A stretch of DNA of 64,000 nucleotides, from NCBI RefSeq assembly GCF_900104745.1, contig NZ_LT629732.1:2963981-3027980 (forward strand), in the 5' to 3' direction. Numbering within the stretch: the first letter of the stretch is position 1; the number at the start of each line of letters is the position of its first letter. A model generated the notes under the pieces. It saw only the letters and a program-made list of their open reading frames with translations. It was not told the DNA's origin and made no database searches. Of this stretch, positions 17,558-49,453 are shown piece after piece. The DNA comes from Actinopolymorpha singaporensis (GTDB lineage: Bacteria > Actinomycetota > Actinomycetes > Propionibacteriales > Actinopolymorphaceae). Both the position numbers and the translations under genes were made by a program.

Positions 17558-17692
17558 GGCTCGAGGGCCCTGGCGTACTGCGCGGTCGCAAGCAGTTTGT
17601 GACCCCACCCATCCGCGGGCGGGACCTCCGGGTACTCGCCCGCACTGACACCGGTACCTGATCCGGCCGGTGCAGGAAGGAGAACCTGTTCG

Positions 17693-39660: not shown

Positions 39661-40713
39661 GTGACCGACCTGCACGTCGTCGAGGCGAAGCCCACGGACG
39701 CGGCTGCCCTGGTGGGGGTCATCCACGCGGCGTTCGGCGCCCGGCCGCCACTGGACCCACCAGGCACCGCGCTGCGGGAGACGGTGCAGACGGTGGAGGA
39801 CGCGGTGCGTTCCCACGGCGGGCTGCTGGCCCGGGTCGACGGCCGCGCCGCCGGGGCCATGCTGCTCGCCGAGAACCACGGGTGGCTCGACCTGCGCCGT
39901 GTGTCGGTGCACCCGAGGTTCCAGCACCGCGGCGTGGCCACCGCGATGGTCGGTTGCGCGGAGGAGGTCGCGGCCGAGCGCGGGCTCGCGGGCGTACGTC
40001 TGGTCGCCCGCGCCGAGCTTCCGGCCACACTCACGTTCTGGCGCCACCGCGGCTACCTCGAGGCCGGCCGGGACGGCCCGAACATCCACCTGGGCAAGCG
40101 ACTGCCGGTGGAGGTGACGGCGGGCAGCGTCGAGGACACCCAGGAGGTCGGCCGGCGGCTCGCGAAGATCCTGCGCGCCGGTGACCTGGTGCTTCTGACA
40201 GGGGAACTCGGTGCCGGCAAGACCACCCTGACGCAGGGGATCGGCGCCGGCCTGGGCGTCCGCGGCCAGGTCACCTCACCCACGTTCGTCATCGCCCGCG
40301 CGCACCCGTCGACGGTCGGCGGTCCGCCCCTGGTGCATGTCGACGCCTACCGGCTGGGCGGCGTGGCCGAACTCGACGACCTCGACCTGGACACCTCCGT
40401 GGACGACGCGGTCACGGTGGTCGAGTGGGGCGAGGGACTCGCGGAGGGCCTGGCCGAGGACCGGCTGGAGGTCGTGGTGAGCCGGGCCGTCGGGGAGGAA
40501 TCCACGGGCGAGGTCGTGGGCGGAAGCACGGGCGAGCGCGAGGGCGAACCCGACGACGAACCCGACGACGAGTTCGGCGACGACGCCGAGGACGAACGAG
40601 CGGATGTCCGGCAGGTCCGGGTCGTCCCGGTCGGCCGGCGCTGGCTGGACGTCGCGGTGCGCGACGCGCTCGCCGGAGGGCTCGCGGCCGACGTCAGGTC
40701 CGTCCCGAACTGA
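39661..40713 (+). CDS. tsaE: GNAT acetyltransferase fused to TsaE (t6A ATPase)
   Basis: A 350-residue two-domain protein. Residues 1-150 are a GNAT fold with RVSVHPRFQHRGVATAMVGC as the acetyl-CoA site. Residues 155-350 are TsaE, the ATPase of the tRNA t6A complex: LTGELGAGKTTLTQGIGAGL is the P-loop, VTSPTFVIARAH is the switch-like motif, and VHVDAYRLGGVAELDDL and VTVVEWGEGLAE follow. An Asp/Glu-rich insert (residues about 285-320) extends TsaE. A frame-shift artefact is unlikely because both domains are continuous and in normal codon usage. GTG 39661 follows a purine-rich stretch. Confidence 0.92.
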   Translation: MTDLHVVEAKPTDAAALVGVIHAAFGARPPLDPPGTALRETVQTVEDAVRSHGGLLARVDGRAAGAMLLAENHGWLDLRRVSVHPRFQHRGVATAMVGCAEEVAAERGLAGVRLVARAELPATLTFWRHRGYLEAGRDGPNIHLGKRLPVEVTAGSVEDTQEVGRRLAKILRAGDLVLLTGELGAGKTTLTQGIGAGLGVRGQVTSPTFVIARAHPSTVGGPPLVHVDAYRLGGVAELDDLDLDTSVDDAVTVVEWGEGLAEGLAEDRLEVVVSRAVGEESTGEVVGGSTGEREGEPDDEPDDEFGDDAEDERADVRQVRVVPVGRRWLDVAVRDALAGGLAADVRSVPN

Positions 40714-40739
40714 CCTTCGCCGCCGGCCCGGGCTAGCCT
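40710..40739 (+). promoter_or_regulatory. Candidate promoter of leaderless tsaB
   Basis: CTGACC (40710-40715), an 18-base spacer and TAGCCT (40734-40739) lie so that the GTG of tsaB follows seven bases after the -10. This is a good fit for a leaderless transcript starting inside the tsaE-tsaB gap. Confidence 0.55.
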
Positions 40740-40746
40740 GACCAAC

Positions 40747-41406
40747 GTGCTGCTCCTCGCGTTCGACACGGCCACCCCGGCGATCACGGTCGCACTCCAC
40801 GACGGGACGTCGGCGGTGGCGACGTCCACGGTCGTGGACGCCATGCGTCACGGCGAGCTTCTCGCCCCCGGGATCGCGTCGGTTCTCGACCAGGCCGGTG
40901 CCGACCGGACCGACCTGACCGACATCGCCGTGGGCGTCGGCCCCGGCCCGTTCACGGGGCTGCGGGTGGGCCTGATGACGGCCCGGACGTTGGGCCACGT
41001 TCTGGACATCCCGGTGCACGGCGTGTGCACGCTCGACGTGCTCGCCGCCGCCGCCGAGGTCGACTCCGGACCGTTCTGCGTGGCGACGGACGCGCGGCGC
41101 AAGGAGGTCTACTGGGGGAGGTACGCCGACCGGCACACCCGCGTCGACGGCCCGCTGGTGGACCGGCCGGACGCCTTGGCCACCGCCGACCCCGTGGTGG
41201 GGCGGGGCGCGGTGCTGTACCCGGCGGCGTTCCCGACGGCGGCCGGCCCGGTGGACCCCGATGCCGCGGTGCTGGCCGACCTGGTGGCGTCGGGCACGGC
41301 GAAGGTCGTACCCGCGACCCCCATGTATCTCCGCCGGCCCGACGCGGTCGAGCCCCGCAGCCGCAAGCGCGTCCTGACCGCACGGGAGGAGCGGGTCCCG
41401 TCGTGA
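40747..41406 (+). CDS. tsaB: tRNA t6A biosynthesis protein TsaB
   Basis: A 219-residue ASKHA-fold partner of TsaD, needed for N6-threonylcarbamoyladenosine at position 37 of ANN-decoding tRNAs. LAFDTATPAITVALHDG is the ATPase-like first strand, and VGVGPGPFTGLRVGLMTART is the family hallmark. DARRKEVYWGRY follows in the second half. The GTG start lies seven bases after a -10 box, without a Shine-Dalgarno. Its stop overlaps the GTG of rimI. The tsaE-tsaB-rimI-tsaD order is typical of actinobacteria. Confidence 0.95.
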   Translation: MLLLAFDTATPAITVALHDGTSAVATSTVVDAMRHGELLAPGIASVLDQAGADRTDLTDIAVGVGPGPFTGLRVGLMTARTLGHVLDIPVHGVCTLDVLAAAAEVDSGPFCVATDARRKEVYWGRYADRHTRVDGPLVDRPDALATADPVVGRGAVLYPAAFPTAAGPVDPDAAVLADLVASGTAKVVPATPMYLRRPDAVEPRSRKRVLTAREERVPS

Positions 41407-41924
41407 TCTCCATCCGGCCGGCTCGGACCGCTGATCTCGTGACGTTGCGCGCGCTGGAGACGGCCTGCTTCGGCCGGGACGCCTGGGGTGAGCAGGCACT
41501 GGAGGGCGAGCTCGCCGGGGTGCCGGACACCAGGTGCGTACTCGTCGCCGAGGACACCGGCGCCTCCGGCTCTGCCGGCCCATCCGGACCCCCCGGCGAG
41601 ATCTCTGGGGCCGCAGCGGGCGGGGACACGGCTGTCGCGGGGTACGCATCCCTGCTCGCGGTCGCGGCCACGGCCGACGTCCAGCGCATCGCCGTACGAC
41701 CGGACCGCCGCCGGGAGGGGATCGGCCGGGCGCTGCTGGACGCGCTGCTCGCGGAGGCCCGGGAGCGTGGTTGCGCCGAAGCGTTGCTGGAGGTTCGCCA
41801 CGACAACGCCGCCGCGCTGGCGATGTACGAGGCGACCGGCTTCGAGCAGATCGCGCGGCGGCGCGGCTACTACCACGGTGTGGCCGACGCCCTGGTTCTG
41901 CGACTCGCCCCGCTGGGGGAGTAG
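41403..41924 (+). CDS. rimI: Ribosomal-protein-alanine N-acetyltransferase RimI-like
   Basis: A 173-residue GNAT enzyme. In E. coli RimI acetylates the N-terminus of S18. Here the target is inferred. IAVRPDRRREGIGRALLDAL is the acetyl-CoA binding loop, and ALLEVRHDNAAALAMYEATG and FEQIARRRGYYHGVADALVL are RimI-type. A Gly/Ala/Pro/Ser-rich insert (residues about 52-75) replaces a short loop. GTG 41403 overlaps the tsaB stop as GTGA. In most relatives tsaD follows directly, but here a 2.1-kb lipoprotein gene intervenes. Confidence 0.92.
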   Translation: MISIRPARTADLVTLRALETACFGRDAWGEQALEGELAGVPDTRCVLVAEDTGASGSAGPSGPPGEISGAAAGGDTAVAGYASLLAVAATADVQRIAVRPDRRREGIGRALLDALLAEARERGCAEALLEVRHDNAAALAMYEATGFEQIARRRGYYHGVADALVLRLAPLGE

Positions 41925-41977
41925 GCCGGGTCGGAGACGCGCAGGTTGCCGGTCCCGGACGATCTTGACCCGATCCC

Positions 41978-42006
41978 TTGACGGCCCTGGAGCGGACTCT
42001 TACGTT
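41978..42006 (+). promoter_or_regulatory. Promoter of the solute-binding protein gene
   Basis: TTGACG (41978-41983), a 17-base spacer and TACGTT (42001-42006) form a near-consensus promoter in the 171-base gap after rimI. The leader before ATG 42096 would be about 83 nt, with a clear GGGAGGGAA ribosome-binding site. Confidence 0.7.
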
Positions 42007-42095
42007 CATCCCGGAAATCGATTGCTCGCACGCTTTCGCCGTGCGTTCGACGCCGGCGGCTCTTGGTGAGGCGTACCGCCGGTCGGGAGGGAACC

Positions 42096-44228
42096 ATGAA
42101 CGACCGACTCGGCCTGAGCCGCCGTGCCCTGCTGCACCTGTCCGCGGTCGCGGCCGGCAGCGTGGTCCTCGCGGGATGTTCGGGTGGCGACAACCAGACC
42201 GACGGTGGCGCCGGCCCGAAGGGTGGCGGCAAGCCGACCTCGCGGGCCCGCAAGGGATCGCGCGTCAAGCCGCTCGCGGTGCCGGCGAAGCTGAAGGAGT
42301 CGCCGGAGCTCGCCAAGCTCGTGCAGGCCGGCAAGCTGCCCAAGCTCGAGGAACGGCTGCCCAAGAAGCCCTACGTCGTACCCCACAACTGGCTGGAGCC
42401 CGGGAAGTACGGCGGTGCGATCAGCACGGTCACCTCCGCCAGCGACTCCGGCACCCATGCGGAGTTCATGTACGGTCACTCGCTGCTGCGCTGGCTCAAC
42501 GACGGCCAGGACATCGGCCCGGGTCTGGTGGAGTCGTGGGAGTCCAACGCCGACGCCAGCGAGTGGACGCTGCACTTCCGCGAGGGCCTGAAGTGGTCCG
42601 ACGGCCACCCGTGGTCCACCGACGACATCATGTTCTGGTGGAACGACATGGTCCTCAACACCCAGCACAGCGAGGTCCCCCCGGACGAGGCCCGTTCGGG
42701 CAAGGGCACCGTGATGACGATGACGGCGCCGGACGCACTGACCATCTCGATGAAGTTCGACGCGCCCGCTCCGCTGACCGCCGACCGGCTGGCGATGTGG
42801 GTCAAGCGCGGGAACGGGCCGGGCTGGATGGAGCCCAAGCACTACCTCAAGCAGTGGCACCCGAAGTACAACAAGTCGGTGGGGAAGGACTGGGCCACCG
42901 ACAAGGGGTTGTTCGACCAGAAGCGGGCCTGGATCCGCAACCCCGACTGCCCGGTGATGACCGGCTGGAAGTGCAAGTCGTACTCGGAGGGTCGCCGGGT
43001 CGTCTTCGACCGCAACCCGTACTACTGGTGCGTCTCGCCCGACGGCGCGCAGCTTCCCTACCTGGACACGCTGAACTTCAACGTCGTCCAGAACCCCGAG
43101 GTGCAGAAGCTGCAGGCCGTCGAGGGAAAGATGAACTTCCTCTTCGGTGGGTTCACCTCGCTGTTCCTCAGCGACATCTCCTCGCTCAAGCAGGCGCAGT
43201 CGAAGACCAAGCTCGAGGTGCTCCTGTGGGACGCCGGTGACGGCAGCGGCTCGCTGGTGTTCTTCAACCAGGACTACTACGAGCCGAAGATGCGCAAGCT
43301 GATCCGGAACGCGAAGTTCCGCCAGGCCCTTTCGCACGCCTACAACCGCGCCGAGGTGCAGAAGGCGGTCTACTACAACACCGGCGAGCTCACCACCGGG
43401 ACGATGAGCCCGAAGGCGATCGAGTTCCACGTCAACGAGGAGGGCAAGAAGGTCTACAAGTCGTGGCGGGACAGCTACATCAAGTACGACCCCGAGCTGG
43501 CCAAGAAGATCCTCGACGAGATCGGCGTGGTGGACAAGGACGGTGACGGCAAGCGGGAGATGCCGGACGGCTCCAAGCTCGTCGTACGGCTGGACTACCA
43601 GGCCGACACCGCACCGGAGCACCTGCACAAGAACAACCTGCTGAAGAAGGACTGGGACGCGATCGGGATCGACACCCGGCTCAACCCGGTGCCGCCGGAC
43701 GGCTTCGGTGACCAGTGGCGGTTCGGCAAGCTGATGACCAACACCACGTGGGAGACCGGTGACGGCCCCAACTGCCTGGTCTACCCGCAGTGGCTGGTGC
43801 CGATGGAGTCCTCGCGCTGGGCGCCGTTGCAGGGCGAGTTCTACAACCAGCGTGGTGGGCCGAACGAGAAGAAGCAGCTGGACGTCGACCCGTACAAGCG
43901 CACACCGCCGCGGATGGACGCCGAGCCCGGCGGCCCGGTCGCCCGGTTGTGGAAGATCTACGACCAGACCAAGATCGAGCCGGACGAGCTGAAGCGGCAC
44001 CAACTCGTCTGGGAGATGGTGAAGATCCACATCACCGACGGCCCGTACCTGCTCGGCGTCGTGGCGAACACGCCGTACATCCTGCTCGTGCACGAGGACA
44101 TGAAGAACGTCCCGGCACGAAACGAGCTGGCCATGGGCGGGTTCGCCGCACCCTGGATCCATCCCACCCCGGCGGTGTACGACCCGGAGACGTGGTTCTG
44201 GACCAACCCCGACCAGCACACGATCTGA
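42096..44228 (+). CDS. Family-5 extracellular solute-binding lipoprotein
   Basis: A 710-residue periplasmic-type binding protein of the peptide/nickel/sugar ABC family (SBP_bac_5). The signal has a twin-arginine SRRALL and a lipobox LAGC with Cys28, so Tat export and lipid anchoring are likely. ESWESNADASEWTLHFREGL, KWSDGHPWSTDDIMFWWNDM and FRQALSHAYNRAEVQKAVYY are family motifs. The length is greater than for most dipeptide binders (500-600). No permease or ATPase gene is adjacent, so its transporter lies elsewhere. It has its own promoter and terminator and splits the rimI-tsaD pair. Confidence 0.92.
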   Translation: MNDRLGLSRRALLHLSAVAAGSVVLAGCSGGDNQTDGGAGPKGGGKPTSRARKGSRVKPLAVPAKLKESPELAKLVQAGKLPKLEERLPKKPYVVPHNWLEPGKYGGAISTVTSASDSGTHAEFMYGHSLLRWLNDGQDIGPGLVESWESNADASEWTLHFREGLKWSDGHPWSTDDIMFWWNDMVLNTQHSEVPPDEARSGKGTVMTMTAPDALTISMKFDAPAPLTADRLAMWVKRGNGPGWMEPKHYLKQWHPKYNKSVGKDWATDKGLFDQKRAWIRNPDCPVMTGWKCKSYSEGRRVVFDRNPYYWCVSPDGAQLPYLDTLNFNVVQNPEVQKLQAVEGKMNFLFGGFTSLFLSDISSLKQAQSKTKLEVLLWDAGDGSGSLVFFNQDYYEPKMRKLIRNAKFRQALSHAYNRAEVQKAVYYNTGELTTGTMSPKAIEFHVNEEGKKVYKSWRDSYIKYDPELAKKILDEIGVVDKDGDGKREMPDGSKLVVRLDYQADTAPEHLHKNNLLKKDWDAIGIDTRLNPVPPDGFGDQWRFGKLMTNTTWETGDGPNCLVYPQWLVPMESSRWAPLQGEFYNQRGGPNEKKQLDVDPYKRTPPRMDAEPGGPVARLWKIYDQTKIEPDELKRHQLVWEMVKIHITDGPYLLGVVANTPYILLVHEDMKNVPARNELAMGGFAAPWIHPTPAVYDPETWFWTNPDQHTI

Positions 44229-44255
44229 CCGGACGACCACAGCAACGAACGCAGA

Positions 44256-44296
44256 CCGCGAGCTCGGCCCGCCACACCGGCGGGCTAGGCTCGCGG
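44256..44296 (+). terminator. Hairpin between the solute-binding protein gene and tsaD
   Basis: An 8-bp outer stem (CCGCGAGC at 44256-44263 with GCTCGCGG at 44289-44296) and a 7-bp inner stem (GCCCGCC at 44267-44273 with GGCGGGC at 44279-44285) lie 28 bases after the lipoprotein stop. The distal arm contains the TAGGCT box of the next unit. Confidence 0.65.
44286..44291 (+). promoter_or_regulatory. Candidate -10 box upstream of the tsaD leader peptide
   Basis: TAGGCT is followed by seven bases and GTG 44299, the same geometry as TAGCCT-N7-GTG at tsaB. It lies in the distal arm of the terminator hairpin. The -35 position has no good match. Confidence 0.38.
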
Positions 44297-44298
44297 TC

Positions 44299-44352
44299 GT
44301 GCGTTGGGTGAGCCGTGGCGTGAACGACGAGTGGGCCGAGGTGGTCGGGTGA
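44299..44352 (+). CDS. Putative 17-residue leader peptide coupled to tsaD
   Basis: A short frame encodes [17 protein letters not shown] and ends TGA at 44350-44352, overlapping the GTG of tsaD by three bases (GTGA type). Its GTG is seven bases after a TAGGCT box, so it may be translated from a leaderless transcript and hand ribosomes to tsaD, which has no good ribosome-binding site of its own. It could equally be chance. There is no family evidence. Confidence 0.3.
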
Positions 44353-45395
44353 GCGACGAACCACTGGTGCTGGGCATCGAAACGTCGTGCGATGAGACAG
44401 GTGTCGGAATCGTCCGGGGCGGCACCCTGCTTGCCGACGCGGTCGCCTCCAGCCTGGAGGAGCACGCGAGGTTCGGCGGCGTGGTGCCCGAGGTCGCCAG
44501 CCGTGCGCACCTGGAGGCGATGATCCCGTCGGTCGACCGCGCCTGCGAGACGGCCGGCGTCCGGCTCGCCGACGTGGACGCGATCTCGGTGACCAGCGGG
44601 CCCGGACTCGCCGGCGCTCTCCTCGTCGGCGTCGCCGCGGCGAAGGCGCTGGCCCTCGGCCTGGGCAAGCCGCTGTACGGCGTCAACCACCTGGCCGCCC
44701 ACGTCGCGGTGGACACCCTCGAACACGGCCCGCTGCCCGAGCCGTGCGTGTCCCTGCTGGTGTCCGGCGGGCACTCCTCGCTGCTGCTGGTCGAGGACGT
44801 CACCGACACCGTCGACCCGCTCGGCTCCACCGTCGACGACGCGGCCGGCGAGGCGTTCGACAAGGTGGCCAGACTGCTGGGCCTGCCGTTTCCCGGTGGC
44901 CCCTACGTCGACCGGGAGGCCAAGGCCGGCGACTCGGCGTACGTCCGGTTCCCGCGCGGGCTGACCAGTCAACGTGACCTTGCGCGGCACCGGTTCGACT
45001 TCTCCTTCTCCGGCCTCAAGACGGCCGTCGCGCGCTGGGTGGAGACCCGGGAGCGTGCCGGTGAGCCGGTGCCGGTGGCCGACGTCGCCGCGTCCTTCCA
45101 GGAGGCGGTGTGCGACGTGCTCACCCGCAAGGCGGTGGACGCCTGCCGCAGCAGGGGAGTGGAGGACCTGCTGATCGGCGGTGGTGTCGCTGCCAACTCC
45201 AGGTTGCGGGCGATGGCGGAGGAACGCTGCGCCGCGGCCGGGATCCGGCTGCGGGTGCCCAGGCCCAAGCTGTGCACGGACAACGGCGCCATGGTGGCGG
45301 CGCTGGGCGCACAGATGCTGGCTCGCGGGCGGACCGCGTCCCGGTTGGACCTGGTGGCCGACTCCTCGCTTCCGGTCACGACAGTCGCCGGCTGA
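44349..45395 (+). CDS. tsaD: tRNA t6A threonylcarbamoyltransferase TsaD
   Basis: The 348-residue catalytic subunit transfers threonylcarbamoyl to A37 of t[21 protein letters not shown] is the N-terminal ASKHA signature. [15 protein letters not shown] holds the two metal-binding histidines, and [16 protein letters not shown] and [20 protein letters not shown] follow. [13 protein letters not shown] and [10 protein letters not shown] close the fold. GTG 44349 is preferred. TTG 44304 would add 15 non-family residues. Three 9-bp repeats (45400-45426) follow its stop. Confidence 0.96.
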
Positions 45396-45399
45396 CGCC

Positions 45400-45426
45400 G
45401 CTGTCGCTGCTGTCGCTGCGGTCGCT
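45400..45426. repeat. Three 9-bp tandem repeats downstream of tsaD
   Basis: GCTGTCGCT, GCTGTCGCT and GCGGTCGCT follow each other directly, five bases after the tsaD stop. The remainder of 45396-45630 (235 bases) shows no gene and no strong terminator. Confidence 0.7.
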
Positions 45427-45630
45427 GCCGGCCCGCGTTCCCCTTTTCGCACGTTTGCTTACAGGATGGGGCGATGGTTCGGTTCGCCCTGGATTGCCCC
45501 GCCGGTCGGCGGCCGCTGTCAAGGTCTGCTTGCGCCTGGCCCCGGCGCCGGATTCCGGTCGAACGGTTGGTGAGGCGGGGGAGCGGATAGGAGGCGGACA
45601 GAAGCAGCGTCACAGCTCACCGGAGCCGCC

Positions 45631-46767
45631 ATGACCACTCGCACCGCGACCGGGTCCGGCGTCGCCCCCGAAGACCAGCCCGGGATTCAGCCCGGTGGCC
45701 GGCGCCGGAGAAACACCACGGGCCGGCCCAGGAGCCGGGACAGAGCCCGTCCGGGCAGGAGGATGGTCTGGGTGCCCGGCGGCACGTTCGCGATGGGCAG
45801 CGACGACTTCTACCCCGAGGAGCGTCCGGTCCGCACGGTCGAGGTGGACGGCTTCTGGATGGACGAGCATCCGGTCACGGTGTCGGAGTACCGCCGGTTC
45901 GTCCGGGCCACCGGCTACGTCACCGTCGCCGAACGCGAACTCGGGGCGGGCCGGAGCCCAGGTGCGGAATACAGGCCGGCGACGCCAGGGTCGCTGGTCT
46001 TCCATCCCACCCCGGGTCCGGTGGACCTGTCCGACTGCCGGAACTGGTGGTCGTACGTTCCGGGCGCGTGCTGGCTCCGGCCCGAAGGCCCCGGCAGCAG
46101 CCCGCACGGCCGCGAACGCCATCCGGTGACGCACGTCGCCTACGAGGACGCCGAGGCGTACGCGACCTGGTCGGGCAAGCAACTTCCGACCGAGAGCGAG
46201 TGGGAGTACGCAGCGCGCGGGGGGCTGGACGGCGCGGTCTACGCCTGGGGGAACGACTTCAGCCCGCACGGGCGGCTGATGGCCAACGTCTGGCAGGGCG
46301 ACTTCCCGTGGCGCCATGCCGGGCTCGGCCCGCTCGAGCGAACGTCGCCGATCGGCAGGTTTCCCGTCAACGGGTACGGCCTGCTGGACATCACCGGCAA
46401 CGTGTGGGAGTGGACGAGCGACGTCTACCGCGCGCCGGAGCCGGACCGCGCGGCCAGCGCGGTCTGCGTGCCTCTCGCCGTGTCCCTCGCCGGGCCCCTC
46501 GACCGGCGGGCGCCGCTGCCCCGGCAGCGCACCGCCGCCGACACCGAGGCTGGCACCGAGACTGGCACCGAGGCTGGCACCGACGCCGAGGCCGCCACCG
46601 TCACCGACGCCGAGGACGGAAACCGCGTGGTGCGGGTGATCAAGGGCGGCTCGTACCTGTGTTCGGCGACGTTCTGTCTGCGGTACCGTCCGGCGGCCAG
46701 ACAGCCCAGCGACTCGGCGACCACGGCCTGCCACGTCGGGTTCCGGTGCGTCGTCCACCCCCGCTGA
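45631..46767 (+). CDS. Formylglycine-generating enzyme (FGE/SUMF1) homologue
   Basis: A 378-residue protein of the FGE-sulfatase family, which oxidises a Cys of sulfatases to formylglycine. MVWVPGGTFAMGSDDFYPEE, FWMDEHPVTVSEYRRFVRAT and PTESEWEYAARGG are hallmarks, and the end has KGGSYLCSATFCLRYRPAAR. Cys344 and Cys349 are five apart, like the catalytic copper-binding pair of characterised actinobacterial FGEs, so true activity is plausible. A Thr/Glu/Ala/Gly repeat insert (about 302-328) sits before the active site. No sulfatase gene is in the window. About 44 variable residues precede the core. Confidence 0.88.
   Translation: MTTRTATGSGVAPEDQPGIQPGGRRRRNTTGRPRSRDRARPGRRMVWVPGGTFAMGSDDFYPEERPVRTVEVDGFWMDEHPVTVSEYRRFVRATGYVTVAERELGAGRSPGAEYRPATPGSLVFHPTPGPVDLSDCRNWWSYVPGACWLRPEGPGSSPHGRERHPVTHVAYEDAEAYATWSGKQLPTESEWEYAARGGLDGAVYAWGNDFSPHGRLMANVWQGDFPWRHAGLGPLERTSPIGRFPVNGYGLLDITGNVWEWTSDVYRAPEPDRAASAVCVPLAVSLAGPLDRRAPLPRQRTAADTEAGTETGTEAGTDAEAATVTDAEDGNRVVRVIKGGSYLCSATFCLRYRPAARQPSDSATTACHVGFRCVVHPR
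46546..46581. repeat. Three 12-bp tandem units inside the FGE gene
   Basis: GAGGCTGGCACC, GAGACTGGCACC and GAGGCTGGCACC are adjacent and in frame, encoding EAGT-ETGT-EAGT in a variable loop. They resemble the 12-bp arrays of two other genes in this window in period but not in sequence. Confidence 0.85.
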
Positions 46768-46817
46768 AGCGGGCGGCGAGCTGAGGGGCCGAGAGAGCTC
46801 CGGCCAGCAGCCCCGGC

Positions 46818-47140
46818 TCAGCCGAACCCGAGCACACACGCGGCGATGAACGCGATGGTGGCGAGGTAGAGCCCGGCGGCCCCCGGCGCCGCTGTGTAGG
46901 GCCCCATCATGTCGCGGTCGCGCGAAATGCCGTACATGAACGCCAGCGGGGGCAGCAGCAGGGTTCAGCACCTGCGTCAGCACCAGGATCGGGATCAGCG
47001 GCGCGCTCGGCTCCAGCACCACGGCCGCCGCGCCGCCGGTGACCAGCAGGTACGTCAGGTAGAAGAGGGTGGCGTCGCGCATTGCCCGTCTCGCCGGTGA
47101 GCGCCACCATGAGCCGAGCGTAGTAGGACAGCTCGGGCCC
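46818..47140 (-). pseudogene. Frameshifted C-terminal remnant of an NRAMP-like metal transporter
   Basis: On the minus strand, RDATLFYLTYLLVTGGAAAV and EPSAPLIPILVLTQVLN are read in one phase (from about 47082). The phase then shifts near 46962 to LLLPPLAFMYGISRDRDMMG and PGAAGLYLATIAFIAACVLG, ending TGA at 46818-46820. Together they look like the last two or three helices of an NRAMP-type divalent-metal transporter. A further shift near 47083 would join PELSYYARLMVALTGETG. The N-terminal two thirds are missing. The rhodanese gene lies immediately upstream, so this is probably decay rather than a sequencing error, although the latter is possible. Confidence 0.6.
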
Positions 47141-47181
47141 GGTGAGGACCCACGAACCGCCTCGGCCGGCACGTGCCTCGC

Positions 47182-47595
47182 TCAGCGGCCGTCCGCCGTC
47201 GTACGACCGCGTTGCCACCACGCTCGTCGCCACGGGCGCAGGCGTCGTGCGCGGCCGCGTTCGCCAGGGTCGGCGCCGGTGTGCGTCGGCAGTCCTGCGG
47301 CCACCCACGCCTTGGTGCCGCCGCGCAGGGAGACCGCCGGGCGACCGAGGCGGGCCAGCCGCTCCGCACCCTGCCGTGACCGGTTGCCCAGAGAGCACAC
47401 CGTCAGCACCTGGCCGGGCGGCAGGGTGCCGAGGACGAACGCCAGCCGGTCCAGCGGGACGTTCACCGCGCCTGCGACGTGGCCGGCCGCGTACTCCTGC
47501 GGGCTTCGTACGTCGACCACCGGGTCGCCGGCCGCCCACAGCGCCCGCGCCACCGTGAGGTCGACCTCCTCCGCCGCCGGTGGGGTCGCCGTCAT
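47182..47595 (-). CDS. Rhodanese-domain protein
   Basis: A 137-residue single-domain sulfurtransferase-like protein. VVDVRSPQEYAAGHVAGAVN is the CH2A-type motif, and VCSLGNRSRQGAERL has the active-site Cys67 in the six-residue loop CSLGNR with the following Ser. RGGTKAWVAAGLP is the CH2B-like end. A basic, Trp/Arg-rich tail (about 28 residues) extends past the fold. ATG 47595 follows GGGAGG by eight bases. It is divergent from the GH3 gene and precedes the NRAMP remnant on the same strand. The physiological sulfur acceptor is unknown. Confidence 0.88.
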   Translation of the reverse strand: MTATPPAAEEVDLTVARALWAAGDPVVDVRSPQEYAAGHVAGAVNVPLDRLAFVLGTLPPGQVLTVCSLGNRSRQGAERLARLGRPAVSLRGGTKAWVAAGLPTHTGADPGERGRARRLRPWRRAWWQRGRTTADGR

Positions 47596-47755
47596 CCGGC
47601 CATCCTCCCGGCACCGGGTCCGGCCGATGTCGGACCCCGGGCGAACCGTGTGCACGGCCGGGTGCTCACAATCGACGGTGGCCACGAACTCACCTGAGTC
47701 CCCAACGCCGGCGGCCGGGCCCGCGGGCCCTACGGAGGTTTGGCACCATGATCGG

Positions 47756-49453
47756 ATGCCGCTACGCCGATGGCGGGCGAGGACGGCCCGAGCCGTCGCG
47801 CTCGCGCTCCTGCTGATCATGTCCACCGCCTGCGGGATGTCCGGTGACGATGGCGGCCGGGACCGGGCCGGGAGCGCGAACCAGGGTGCCCGGGGCGACC
47901 AGAAGGTGACGCCCAAGGCCGGCCGGGGCCGGCCCACCGCCACGCCGACGCCCACGCCGAGATCGGACTCCAAGTCGCTGGCGTGGGGGCCGACCGAGGC
48001 GGAGTGGCACCGCGCCCAGCAGACCGTGGCGGGCATGACGGCCAGCCAGAAGGCCGGCCAGGTGATCGTGGCCGGCTTCCAGGGGACAGCGGCGCCAATC
48101 GAGTCGCTGCGCCGCTACCACGTCGGCGGCGTGATCGTGATGGGTTACAACGTCGACTCGGTGGCGCAGGTACAAGCTGTCAACGCTGCCCTGCACGCGG
48201 AGGCCCGCAACGAGGGCCGCGACTGGCCGCTGCTGGTCGGCGTGGACCAGGAGGGTGGGCCGGTCGCCAGGGTCACCGAGCCGTTGACGGAGTTTCCGTC
48301 CTACATGACGCTCGGCGCCGCCCGCGATCCGTTGCTCGCCCGCCGCGTGGCCCGGGCCAGCGGGGAGGAGCTGCGCAAGCTCGGGTTCACCATGGTCTTC
48401 GCGCCGGACGCCGACGTGACGACCGGGCCGGACGACCCGACCATCGCCAGCCGCTCCGCCGGTGACGACCCCGACCTGGTGTCCGCCATCGTCAAGGGCT
48501 CCCTGCGCGGGTACGCCGACGCCGGGATCCTCTCCGTTCCCAAGCACTTTCCCGGGCACGGCAGCGTCCCCGCGGACAGCCACGTCAGCCTGCCGGTCCA
48601 GCACGCGTCGCTGGCCACGCTCGAGCGCCGTGACCTGGTGCCGTTCGCCGCGGCCGTCAAGGACGGCGTGTCGGCGGTCATGGTCGCCCACATCGACGTA
48701 CGCGCGGTCGACCCGGGCACCCCGGCGTCGGTGTCGAAGCCGATGATCGACGGGGTTCTGCGCAAGCAGCTCGGCTTCCAGGGCGCGGTGTTCACCGACG
48801 CGCTGGAGATGGCCGGGGTGGCCGACAAGTACGGCAGCGCGGAGGCGGGTGTACGCGCCCTGCTCGCCGGTGCCGACGTCCTCCTGCTGCCCGCCAGTGC
48901 GGCGAAGACGCACGACGCGATCATGGCGGCGCTGAGCTCGGGCCGGCTACCGCAAGCGCGTCTTGACGAGGCTGCCGCGCGCTCCATCGCGTTGATGCTG
49001 CACGCCAGGTCGACGGCTCAGAAGACACCGTCGGAGGTCGAGCTCGGCGGGGCGAAGGACGTCTCCTACGCCGCCTCGCTGAAGGGGCTGACCGTGGTGT
49101 CGGGCAGGTGCGAAGGTCGCCTGGTGGGTGAGCGGATCAGCGTGGTCGGTGGCCGGTCCGAGGACCGTGCCCGGCTCACCGAGGCCGCCCGCAAGGCAGG
49201 CTTGACAGTAGGTGAGGGCGGTGACGTCGTGCACCTGTTGGGCCGCGGTGAGGCGGGCTCCGGCGCGGTGGTCGTCGCCCTGGACACGCCGTACGGCCTG
49301 GCGCGCAGTTCCGCCTCCGAGGCGCGGATCGGGTTGTACGGGCGTACGCCGGAAGCGTTTCACGCCCTGGTCGACGTGCTCACCGGCAGGGCACGCGGCG
49401 GCGGCCGGCTTCCGGTGCACGTCGGGGACCTGCCCGCACAGCACTGCAGGTAG
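47756..49453 (+). CDS. GH3 family lipoprotein, NagZ-like beta-N-acetylhexosaminidase
   Basis: A 565-residue exported glycosidase. A basic N-terminus and hydrophobic stretch end at Cys26 (MSTAC), an atypical lipobox, and a Thr/Pro linker follows. GH3 features are VGVDQEGGPVARV, SVPKHFPGHGSVPADSH (the KHFPGHG/DSH dyad of NagZ-type enzymes, about 263-275) and VFTDALEMAGVADKY with the nucleophile Asp near 348. A C-terminal accessory domain follows. It may trim peptidoglycan amino sugars. The substrate is inferred. GGAGG is 17 bases away, too far for a normal ribosome-binding site. A leaderless start is possible. Confidence 0.9.
   Translation: MPLRRWRARTARAVALALLLIMSTACGMSGDDGGRDRAGSANQGARGDQKVTPKAGRGRPTATPTPTPRSDSKSLAWGPTEAEWHRAQQTVAGMTASQKAGQVIVAGFQGTAAPIESLRRYHVGGVIVMGYNVDSVAQVQAVNAALHAEARNEGRDWPLLVGVDQEGGPVARVTEPLTEFPSYMTLGAARDPLLARRVARASGEELRKLGFTMVFAPDADVTTGPDDPTIASRSAGDDPDLVSAIVKGSLRGYADAGILSVPKHFPGHGSVPADSHVSLPVQHASLATLERRDLVPFAAAVKDGVSAVMVAHIDVRAVDPGTPASVSKPMIDGVLRKQLGFQGAVFTDALEMAGVADKYGSAEAGVRALLAGADVLLLPASAAKTHDAIMAALSSGRLPQARLDEAAARSIALMLHARSTAQKTPSEVELGGAKDVSYAASLKGLTVVSGRCEGRLVGERISVVGGRSEDRARLTEAARKAGLTVGEGGDVVHLLGRGEAGSGAVVVALDTPYGLARSSASEARIGLYGRTPEAFHALVDVLTGRARGGGRLPVHVGDLPAQHCR

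Follow-up and report, generated by a model that had tools for sequence, protein, structure and literature searches.

A predicted leaderless mini-ORF that probably couples the translation of tsaD in Actinopolymorpha singaporensis

Introduction

How do ribosomes reach tsaD, the gene of the t6A tRNA threonylcarbamoyltransferase, in Actinopolymorpha singaporensis, where a gene for a family-5 solute-binding protein (SBP) lies between it and rimI? The locus is part of the window, as we call the whole stretch of 64,000 nucleotides that was analysed (positions 2963981-3027980 of the 6.4-Mb single-contig genome). Its plus strand carries, in this order, a GNAT-TsaE gene, tsaB, rimI, the SBP gene and tsaD (Table 1). 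The data favour, with a probability of roughly 0.7, a leaderless mini-ORF that couples the translation of tsaD and an upstream hairpin that serves as the end of the SBP transcript.

Table 1. Features of the tsaB-tsaD region, in window coordinates.
Feature	Position	Strand	Details
GNAT-TsaE fusion	39661-40713	+	PF00583 + PF02367
Leaderless-type tsaB start, TAGCCT-N7-GTG	40734-40749	+	TAGCCT 40734-40739, GTG 40747
tsaB	40747-41406	+	
rimI	41403-41924	+	GTGA overlap with tsaB
SBP gene (SBP_bac_5)	42096-44228	+	Pfam PF00496, 3e-56; between rimI and tsaD
Inverted repeat/hairpin	44254-44298	+	10 bp + 3x3 internal loop + 7 bp; no T-tract
Predicted -10 box TAGGCT	44286-44291	+	Sequence; spacing statistics; TANNNT-N7 in 6/8 family genomes
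Predicted leaderless mini-ORF, 17 codons	44299-44352	+	Sequence; first base predicted to be the transcript start
Shine-Dalgarno-like GAGGTGGT for tsaD	44338-44345	+	Inside the mini-ORF; can pair with the 16S 3' end of this genome
GTGA stop/start overlap	44349-44352	+	Mini-ORF TGA 44350-44352, tsaD GTG 44349
tsaD	44349-45395	+	TIGR03723, 410.6 bits; PF00814, 1.8e-90

Results and Discussion

Anatomy of the tsaD start region

The layout given by the original prediction is present in the sequence: TAGGCT, seven bases (44292-44298), and a GTG frame of 17 codons whose stop codon overlaps the start of tsaD. The same -10 geometry had been claimed for tsaB and is found there as well; all seven family relatives carry TAGCCT or TAGGCT, N6 or N7, and then GTG at the tsaB start. 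The start of tsaD at GTG 44349 is backed by the N-terminus DEPLVLGIE, which, with variants, is common to many relatives as judged by eye. Starts farther upstream in the frame of tsaD (TTG 44304 and others) were rejected since they are not kept; among the six genomes checked, G002, G003 and G007 have no such in-frame start. The closest named relatives of the TsaD protein, among the best 80 matches kept, are two from Nocardioides (81 and 83% identity), in a named-genome search that may omit the nearest records. A scan of positions 40000-48000 for E. coli-type promoters gave no match and is uninformative for this promoter class.

Leaderless spacing in the A. singaporensis genome

We analysed the distance between TANNNT and RTG in 464 kb of the genome (the window plus 20 other stretches, 21 pieces in all), which contain 622 TANNNT sites. 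At N6 and N7, RTG followed in 40 and 41 cases, whereas the other 18 spacings averaged 16.9 and peaked at 29 (N19). RTG codons that open frames of at least 100 codons numbered 33 at N6 and 26 at N7, compared with 3-13 elsewhere. TAGGCT itself precedes GTG at N7 at 5 of its 18 sites, including that of tsaD, and the other 19 spacings total 6. This genome has TANNNT-N6/N7-RTG as a leaderless signature, in agreement with the one described for Actinobacteria by Zheng et al. (PMC3160421). Because tsaD is preceded by TAGGCT-N7-GTG and the genome has this spacing profile, TAGGCT is predicted to be the -10 element and GTG 44299 to lie at, or within a base of, the transcript start. A whole-genome count of TANNNT-N7-GTG (241, versus 396 for the reversed pattern, which makes a poor control) was replaced by the spacing profile.

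Coupled cases at N6-8 numbered four in the 464 kb, tsaD included, versus eight over 17 other spacings, a small excess. Candidate coupled mini-ORFs of 5, 21 and 42 codons precede long ORFs at L182 15441 (-), L186 1939 (-) and L189 1537 (-), respectively; one or two of them may be due to chance.

Conservation of the coupled arrangement

Three sets of loci were compared: the family set (n=8 including the window; the family search covered eight genomes and every one was used), an order set (33 loci of other families, a hand-picked selection of the matches listed for 188 outside-family genomes), and the 80 named actinobacterial loci. The coupled signature (TANNNT-N7-GTG, a frame of 17-22 codons, RTGA and tsaD) is conserved in six of the eight family genomes, with mini-ORFs of 17, 17, 18, 18, 22 and 19 codons that end in GTGA in five genomes and in ATGA in G007. 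Conservation of the frame in relatives had been put forward by the original prediction as a check, and this result bears it out for the frame, the -10 spacing and the RTGA overlap alike. Neither coupled nor directly leaderless starts occurred among the 33 order loci; the 80 named loci contained no coupled case and five directly leaderless ones. The counts of directly leaderless starts are lower bounds, because some tsaD starts that are probably leaderless have CACAAT or CACGAT and escape the strict TANNNT rule. In L139, L140 and L142-L146 (order set) and in L027 (Nocardioides), one of these hexamers is found 6-7 nt upstream of a possible tsaD start and is perhaps a variant -10 element of leaderless tsaD.

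When the spacing was displaced as a control, the six sets of displaced spacings yielded five hits in total among the 113 non-family loci. In the family, N15-17 gave hits in four of eight genomes, and the remaining displaced sets gave none; we read these four hits as the same TAGGCT matched to a GTG that lies in frame three codons inside the mini-ORF. The independent coupled cases are at most about three, because four of the six genomes are close relatives with TsaD proteins 98-100% identical. The arrangement is not essential, because G001 has neither a coupled nor a direct leaderless start and tsaD of G006 is directly leaderless.

The peptide is not conserved

Over the six non-independent pairs of the four close genomes, we counted 37 nonsynonymous versus 3 synonymous codon differences; two variable columns fell on first codon positions, seven on second and seven on third. 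The sole length difference among these four mini-ORFs is one whole codon, and the frames of G003 and G007 still close on RTGA. Gapped identities between mini-ORFs are inflated by the alignment and were judged solely against shuffles: by this measure, the G007 mini-ORF shows no likeness to that of the window above chance (0.60 versus 0.66 in shuffles) while its frame and ATGA hold, and the G003 mini-ORF is borderline (0.85 versus 0.76, with 5% of the shuffles as high). Pooled GC content by codon position is coding-like (0.77/0.49/0.86). The peptide is under no visible purifying selection, and it is the linkage and the frame that are kept. The proposed coupling of tsaD through the short frame is thus supported by the arrangement kept in the six genomes and not by the peptide itself, which has not been kept.

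These data also bear on whether the short frame could be a regulatory leader peptide or attenuator that senses an amino acid or the state of a tRNA, a reading that we consider extremely improbable. The position and size of the mini-ORF fit such a role, leaderless cysteine attenuators exist in mycobacteria (cited in PMC9031893), and cysteine occurs in two of the six peptides. Against it, the peptides are unconserved, none has a residue run longer than two that could represent a regulatory codon run, and threonine is absent from all six. The mRNA segment 44299-44400 is not structured beyond shuffles either (z +1.49; 191 of 200 shuffles reach an equally good fold; the centroid is open). For these reasons the term leader peptide, as used in the original prediction, is not supported in the attenuator sense.

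Codons that start with A are those decoded by t6A-bearing tRNAs. They make up 14 of the 105 codons (13%) of the six mini-ORFs, two or three in each; the share is 14% in both tsaD and tsaB, and the SBP gene reaches 24%. This lack of enrichment argues further against an attenuator. One may speculate that the mini-ORF is a t6A sensor, in which under-modified tRNAs would decode A-starting codons poorly, alter the hand-over at GTGA and so tune tsaD; we give this idea hardly any credence. If true, it would amount to autoregulation of t6A synthesis.

A Shine-Dalgarno-like site inside the mini-ORF

The original prediction held that tsaD lacks a strong ribosome-binding site. This premise is wrong: with GGATCACCTCCTTTCT, the 3' tail of the 16S rRNA in the same genome (identical in both copies), GAGGTGGT can form up to eight base pairs, six of them being the Watson-Crick core GAGGTG-CACCTC. 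The duplex has a predicted energy of -11.6 kcal/mol, a value reached by 1.7% of 5000 random 20-mers. The corresponding duplexes of G002-G005 range from -10.7 to -11.6 kcal/mol, and that of G007 is weak (-6.1 kcal/mol, attained by 30% of random segments). Shine-Dalgarno sequences embedded in the upstream ORF have been described at overlapping operon junctions, and the same was suggested for coupled small ORFs, by Shell et al. (PMC4633059).

With such a site, initiation at tsaD might not need the mini-ORF. The GTG at +1 might then be incidental, with tsaD starting by its own GAGGTGGT behind an ordinary 50-nt 5' UTR and any translation of the mini-ORF being a side effect. The absence of mRNA structure beyond shuffles in the start region suits this explanation, as does G001, which does without the coupled arrangement. 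On the other hand, an RTG at exactly N7 and a frame of 17-22 codons that ends in RTGA recur together, in G007 within dissimilar sequence, and we regard an incidental GTG as unlikely.

Under the preferred reading, coupling through the mini-ORF, a transcript driven by TAGGCT would begin at or next to GTG 44299, where a ribosome would start without a leader and read 17 codons whose identity is immaterial. It would terminate at the TGA of the GTGA overlap, and the same ribosome, or a 30S subunit caught by GAGGTGGT, would then start tsaD. The role of the mini-ORF would be to deliver ribosomes to tsaD.

The upstream inverted repeat

The inverted repeat begins 25 nt past the SBP stop codon and ends one base before the predicted transcript start. 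Its 20-nt arms are 85% complementary and separated by a 5-nt loop, and the fold of 44226-44352 has z = -5.19, with none of 200 shuffles as good. The -10 box had been placed in the arm of an upstream terminator. It does lie in the 3' arm (44279-44298), with TAG in the 3x3 internal loop and GCT paired; the name terminator goes further than the hairpin itself, which has no T-tract and does not appear in a scan for T-tract terminators. A stable hairpin without a U-tract shortly past a stop codon is what characterizes tail-less (I-shaped) terminators, and this hairpin is probably the tail-less terminator of the SBP gene, akin to the one reported downstream of tsaD in M. tuberculosis (PMC5335608). 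Since the predicted transcript start lies past the whole hairpin, the latter would form in SBP read-through RNA and not in the tsaD mRNA. Most likely, it ends the transcript of the SBP gene.

All 17 pairs are kept in the window, G002, G004 and G005; the 5' side carries two G-U changes and no two-sided change was found among these four genomes, so covariation gives no support to the hairpin. The intergenic region of G003 contains no ungapped inverted repeat of at least 10 nt, although a bulged stem appears farther upstream in its fold, and its promoter and mini-ORF are kept. G001 has a repeat elsewhere, and a different one surrounds the promoter of G007. The latter (L014:1396-1446) is a 16-nt inverted repeat whose loop encloses the -10 box and the leaderless GTG of the mini-ORF. 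Repeats of the strength of that at tsaD (at least 17 of 20 pairs, loop of 3-8) occur 18 times in the 464 kb, this one included, and mononucleotide shuffles of six of the 21 pieces yielded none. With 18 cases, hairpins of this kind are nothing unusual in the genome. A search for a repeated promoter-hairpin element found the arm-plus-promoter 18-mer only once exactly, and 53 times with up to three mismatches versus 65 for the reversed-pattern control, and the idea was abandoned.

We also asked whether the repeat could be an operator or a cis-acting switch on the tsaD promoter, either as the site of a regulator or through collision of termination with initiation. The repeat spans the -10 box, its pairing is complete in four genomes and G007 has its own repeat around the promoter, all of which are compatible with this role. 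The lack of an ungapped repeat in G003, of any two-sided change in the pairs and of any rarity of such repeats in the genome makes it very unlikely. Interference between terminator and promoter is possible from the geometry.

The rimI-tsaD junction

Among the 113 non-family loci, 90 have a RimI-type tail that stops -12 to +40 nt from a possible tsaD start, and 45 of these 90 show a 4-nt NTGA overlap between the two (44 RTGA and one TTGA). The tail motif is loose and the tsaD start nearest the stop was taken, which favours close junctions; 17 of the 113 loci gave no tail. In the family, an ORF homologous to the SBP gene ends 120-249 nt 5' of tsaD in seven of the eight genomes (the window, G001-G005 and G007). 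G006 has tsaB and rimI upstream of tsaD on the opposite strand. Because the SBP gene precedes tsaD in these seven genomes, the mini-ORF probably replaces rimI as the translational partner of tsaD, and would plausibly stand in for the rimI stop/start junction usual in the other actinobacterial loci examined. We infer that the SBP gene broke the old rimI-tsaD junction and that the mini-ORF restored one.

Comparison with known systems

The architecture is already known from mycobacteria; what would be new is its occurrence at tsaD in another actinobacterial family. Shell et al. (2015; PMC4633059) reported that "coupled" leaderless small ORFs, linked by RTGA to the next gene, are over-represented in mycobacteria, with precedents in M. 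tuberculosis and M. smegmatis. The tsaD mini-ORF resembles them in its RTG at the transcript start, which is predicted here, and in its RTGA overlap, which is found in six of the eight family genomes, the window included; with GTG and 17 codons, it falls within their class of ATG/GTG-started ORFs of 5-50 codons. In some of the mycobacterial cases the linkage is kept beyond the peptide sequence, a property that is not required of the class and that the tsaD mini-ORF shares. Among the cases consulted, none is from the present family or at tsaD. The proposal that coupled ORFs possibly serve only ribosome delivery is repeated in a 2025 review (PMC12548453). We found no report of a coupled leaderless mini-ORF at tsaD in the open-licence literature.

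The alr-groEL1 operon of M. tuberculosis (PMC5335608) is like the window in that tsaD has its own TANNNT promoter, PtsaD, that a hairpin without a U-tract lies near tsaD and that genes overlap by 4 bp. It differs in that PtsaD is inside rimI, with the start site 275 nt upstream of tsaD, and in that the hairpin is downstream of tsaD instead of upstream. Leaderless architecture is absent from this operon according to its authors, unlike the leaderless-type tsaB start of the window and all seven relatives; the same authors point out that whether termination can occur without a U-tract is a matter of dispute. The leaderless cysteine attenuators of Canestrari et al. (2020, as cited in PMC9031893) also have a short leaderless ORF in front of a gene, and the tsaD mini-ORF differs from them in having no repeated regulatory codon.

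The tsaD case would extend the coupled leaderless ORF architecture to a core tRNA-modification gene of a further actinobacterial family. It also suggests how such ORFs might persist: a gene that comes to sit in an operon breaks a stop/start junction, and a non-conserved mini-ORF can restore ribosome delivery. The mini-ORF is in addition an example of a short frame that is invisible to peptide-based conservation tests.

Other observations

Comparison of the window with Rfam at gathering scores gave a single match, the L17 ribosomal-protein leader RNA (RF03132) at 17615-17675, and none at tsaD. An N-terminal GNAT acetyltransferase domain and TsaE form one frame in the window, and ORFs that resemble this fusion by eye are present in G003 and G007. 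A second TsaD-like stretch in three pieces (L016, L018 and L019) was seen at G006:C1:7109289-7110226, perhaps a decayed or frameshifted paralog.
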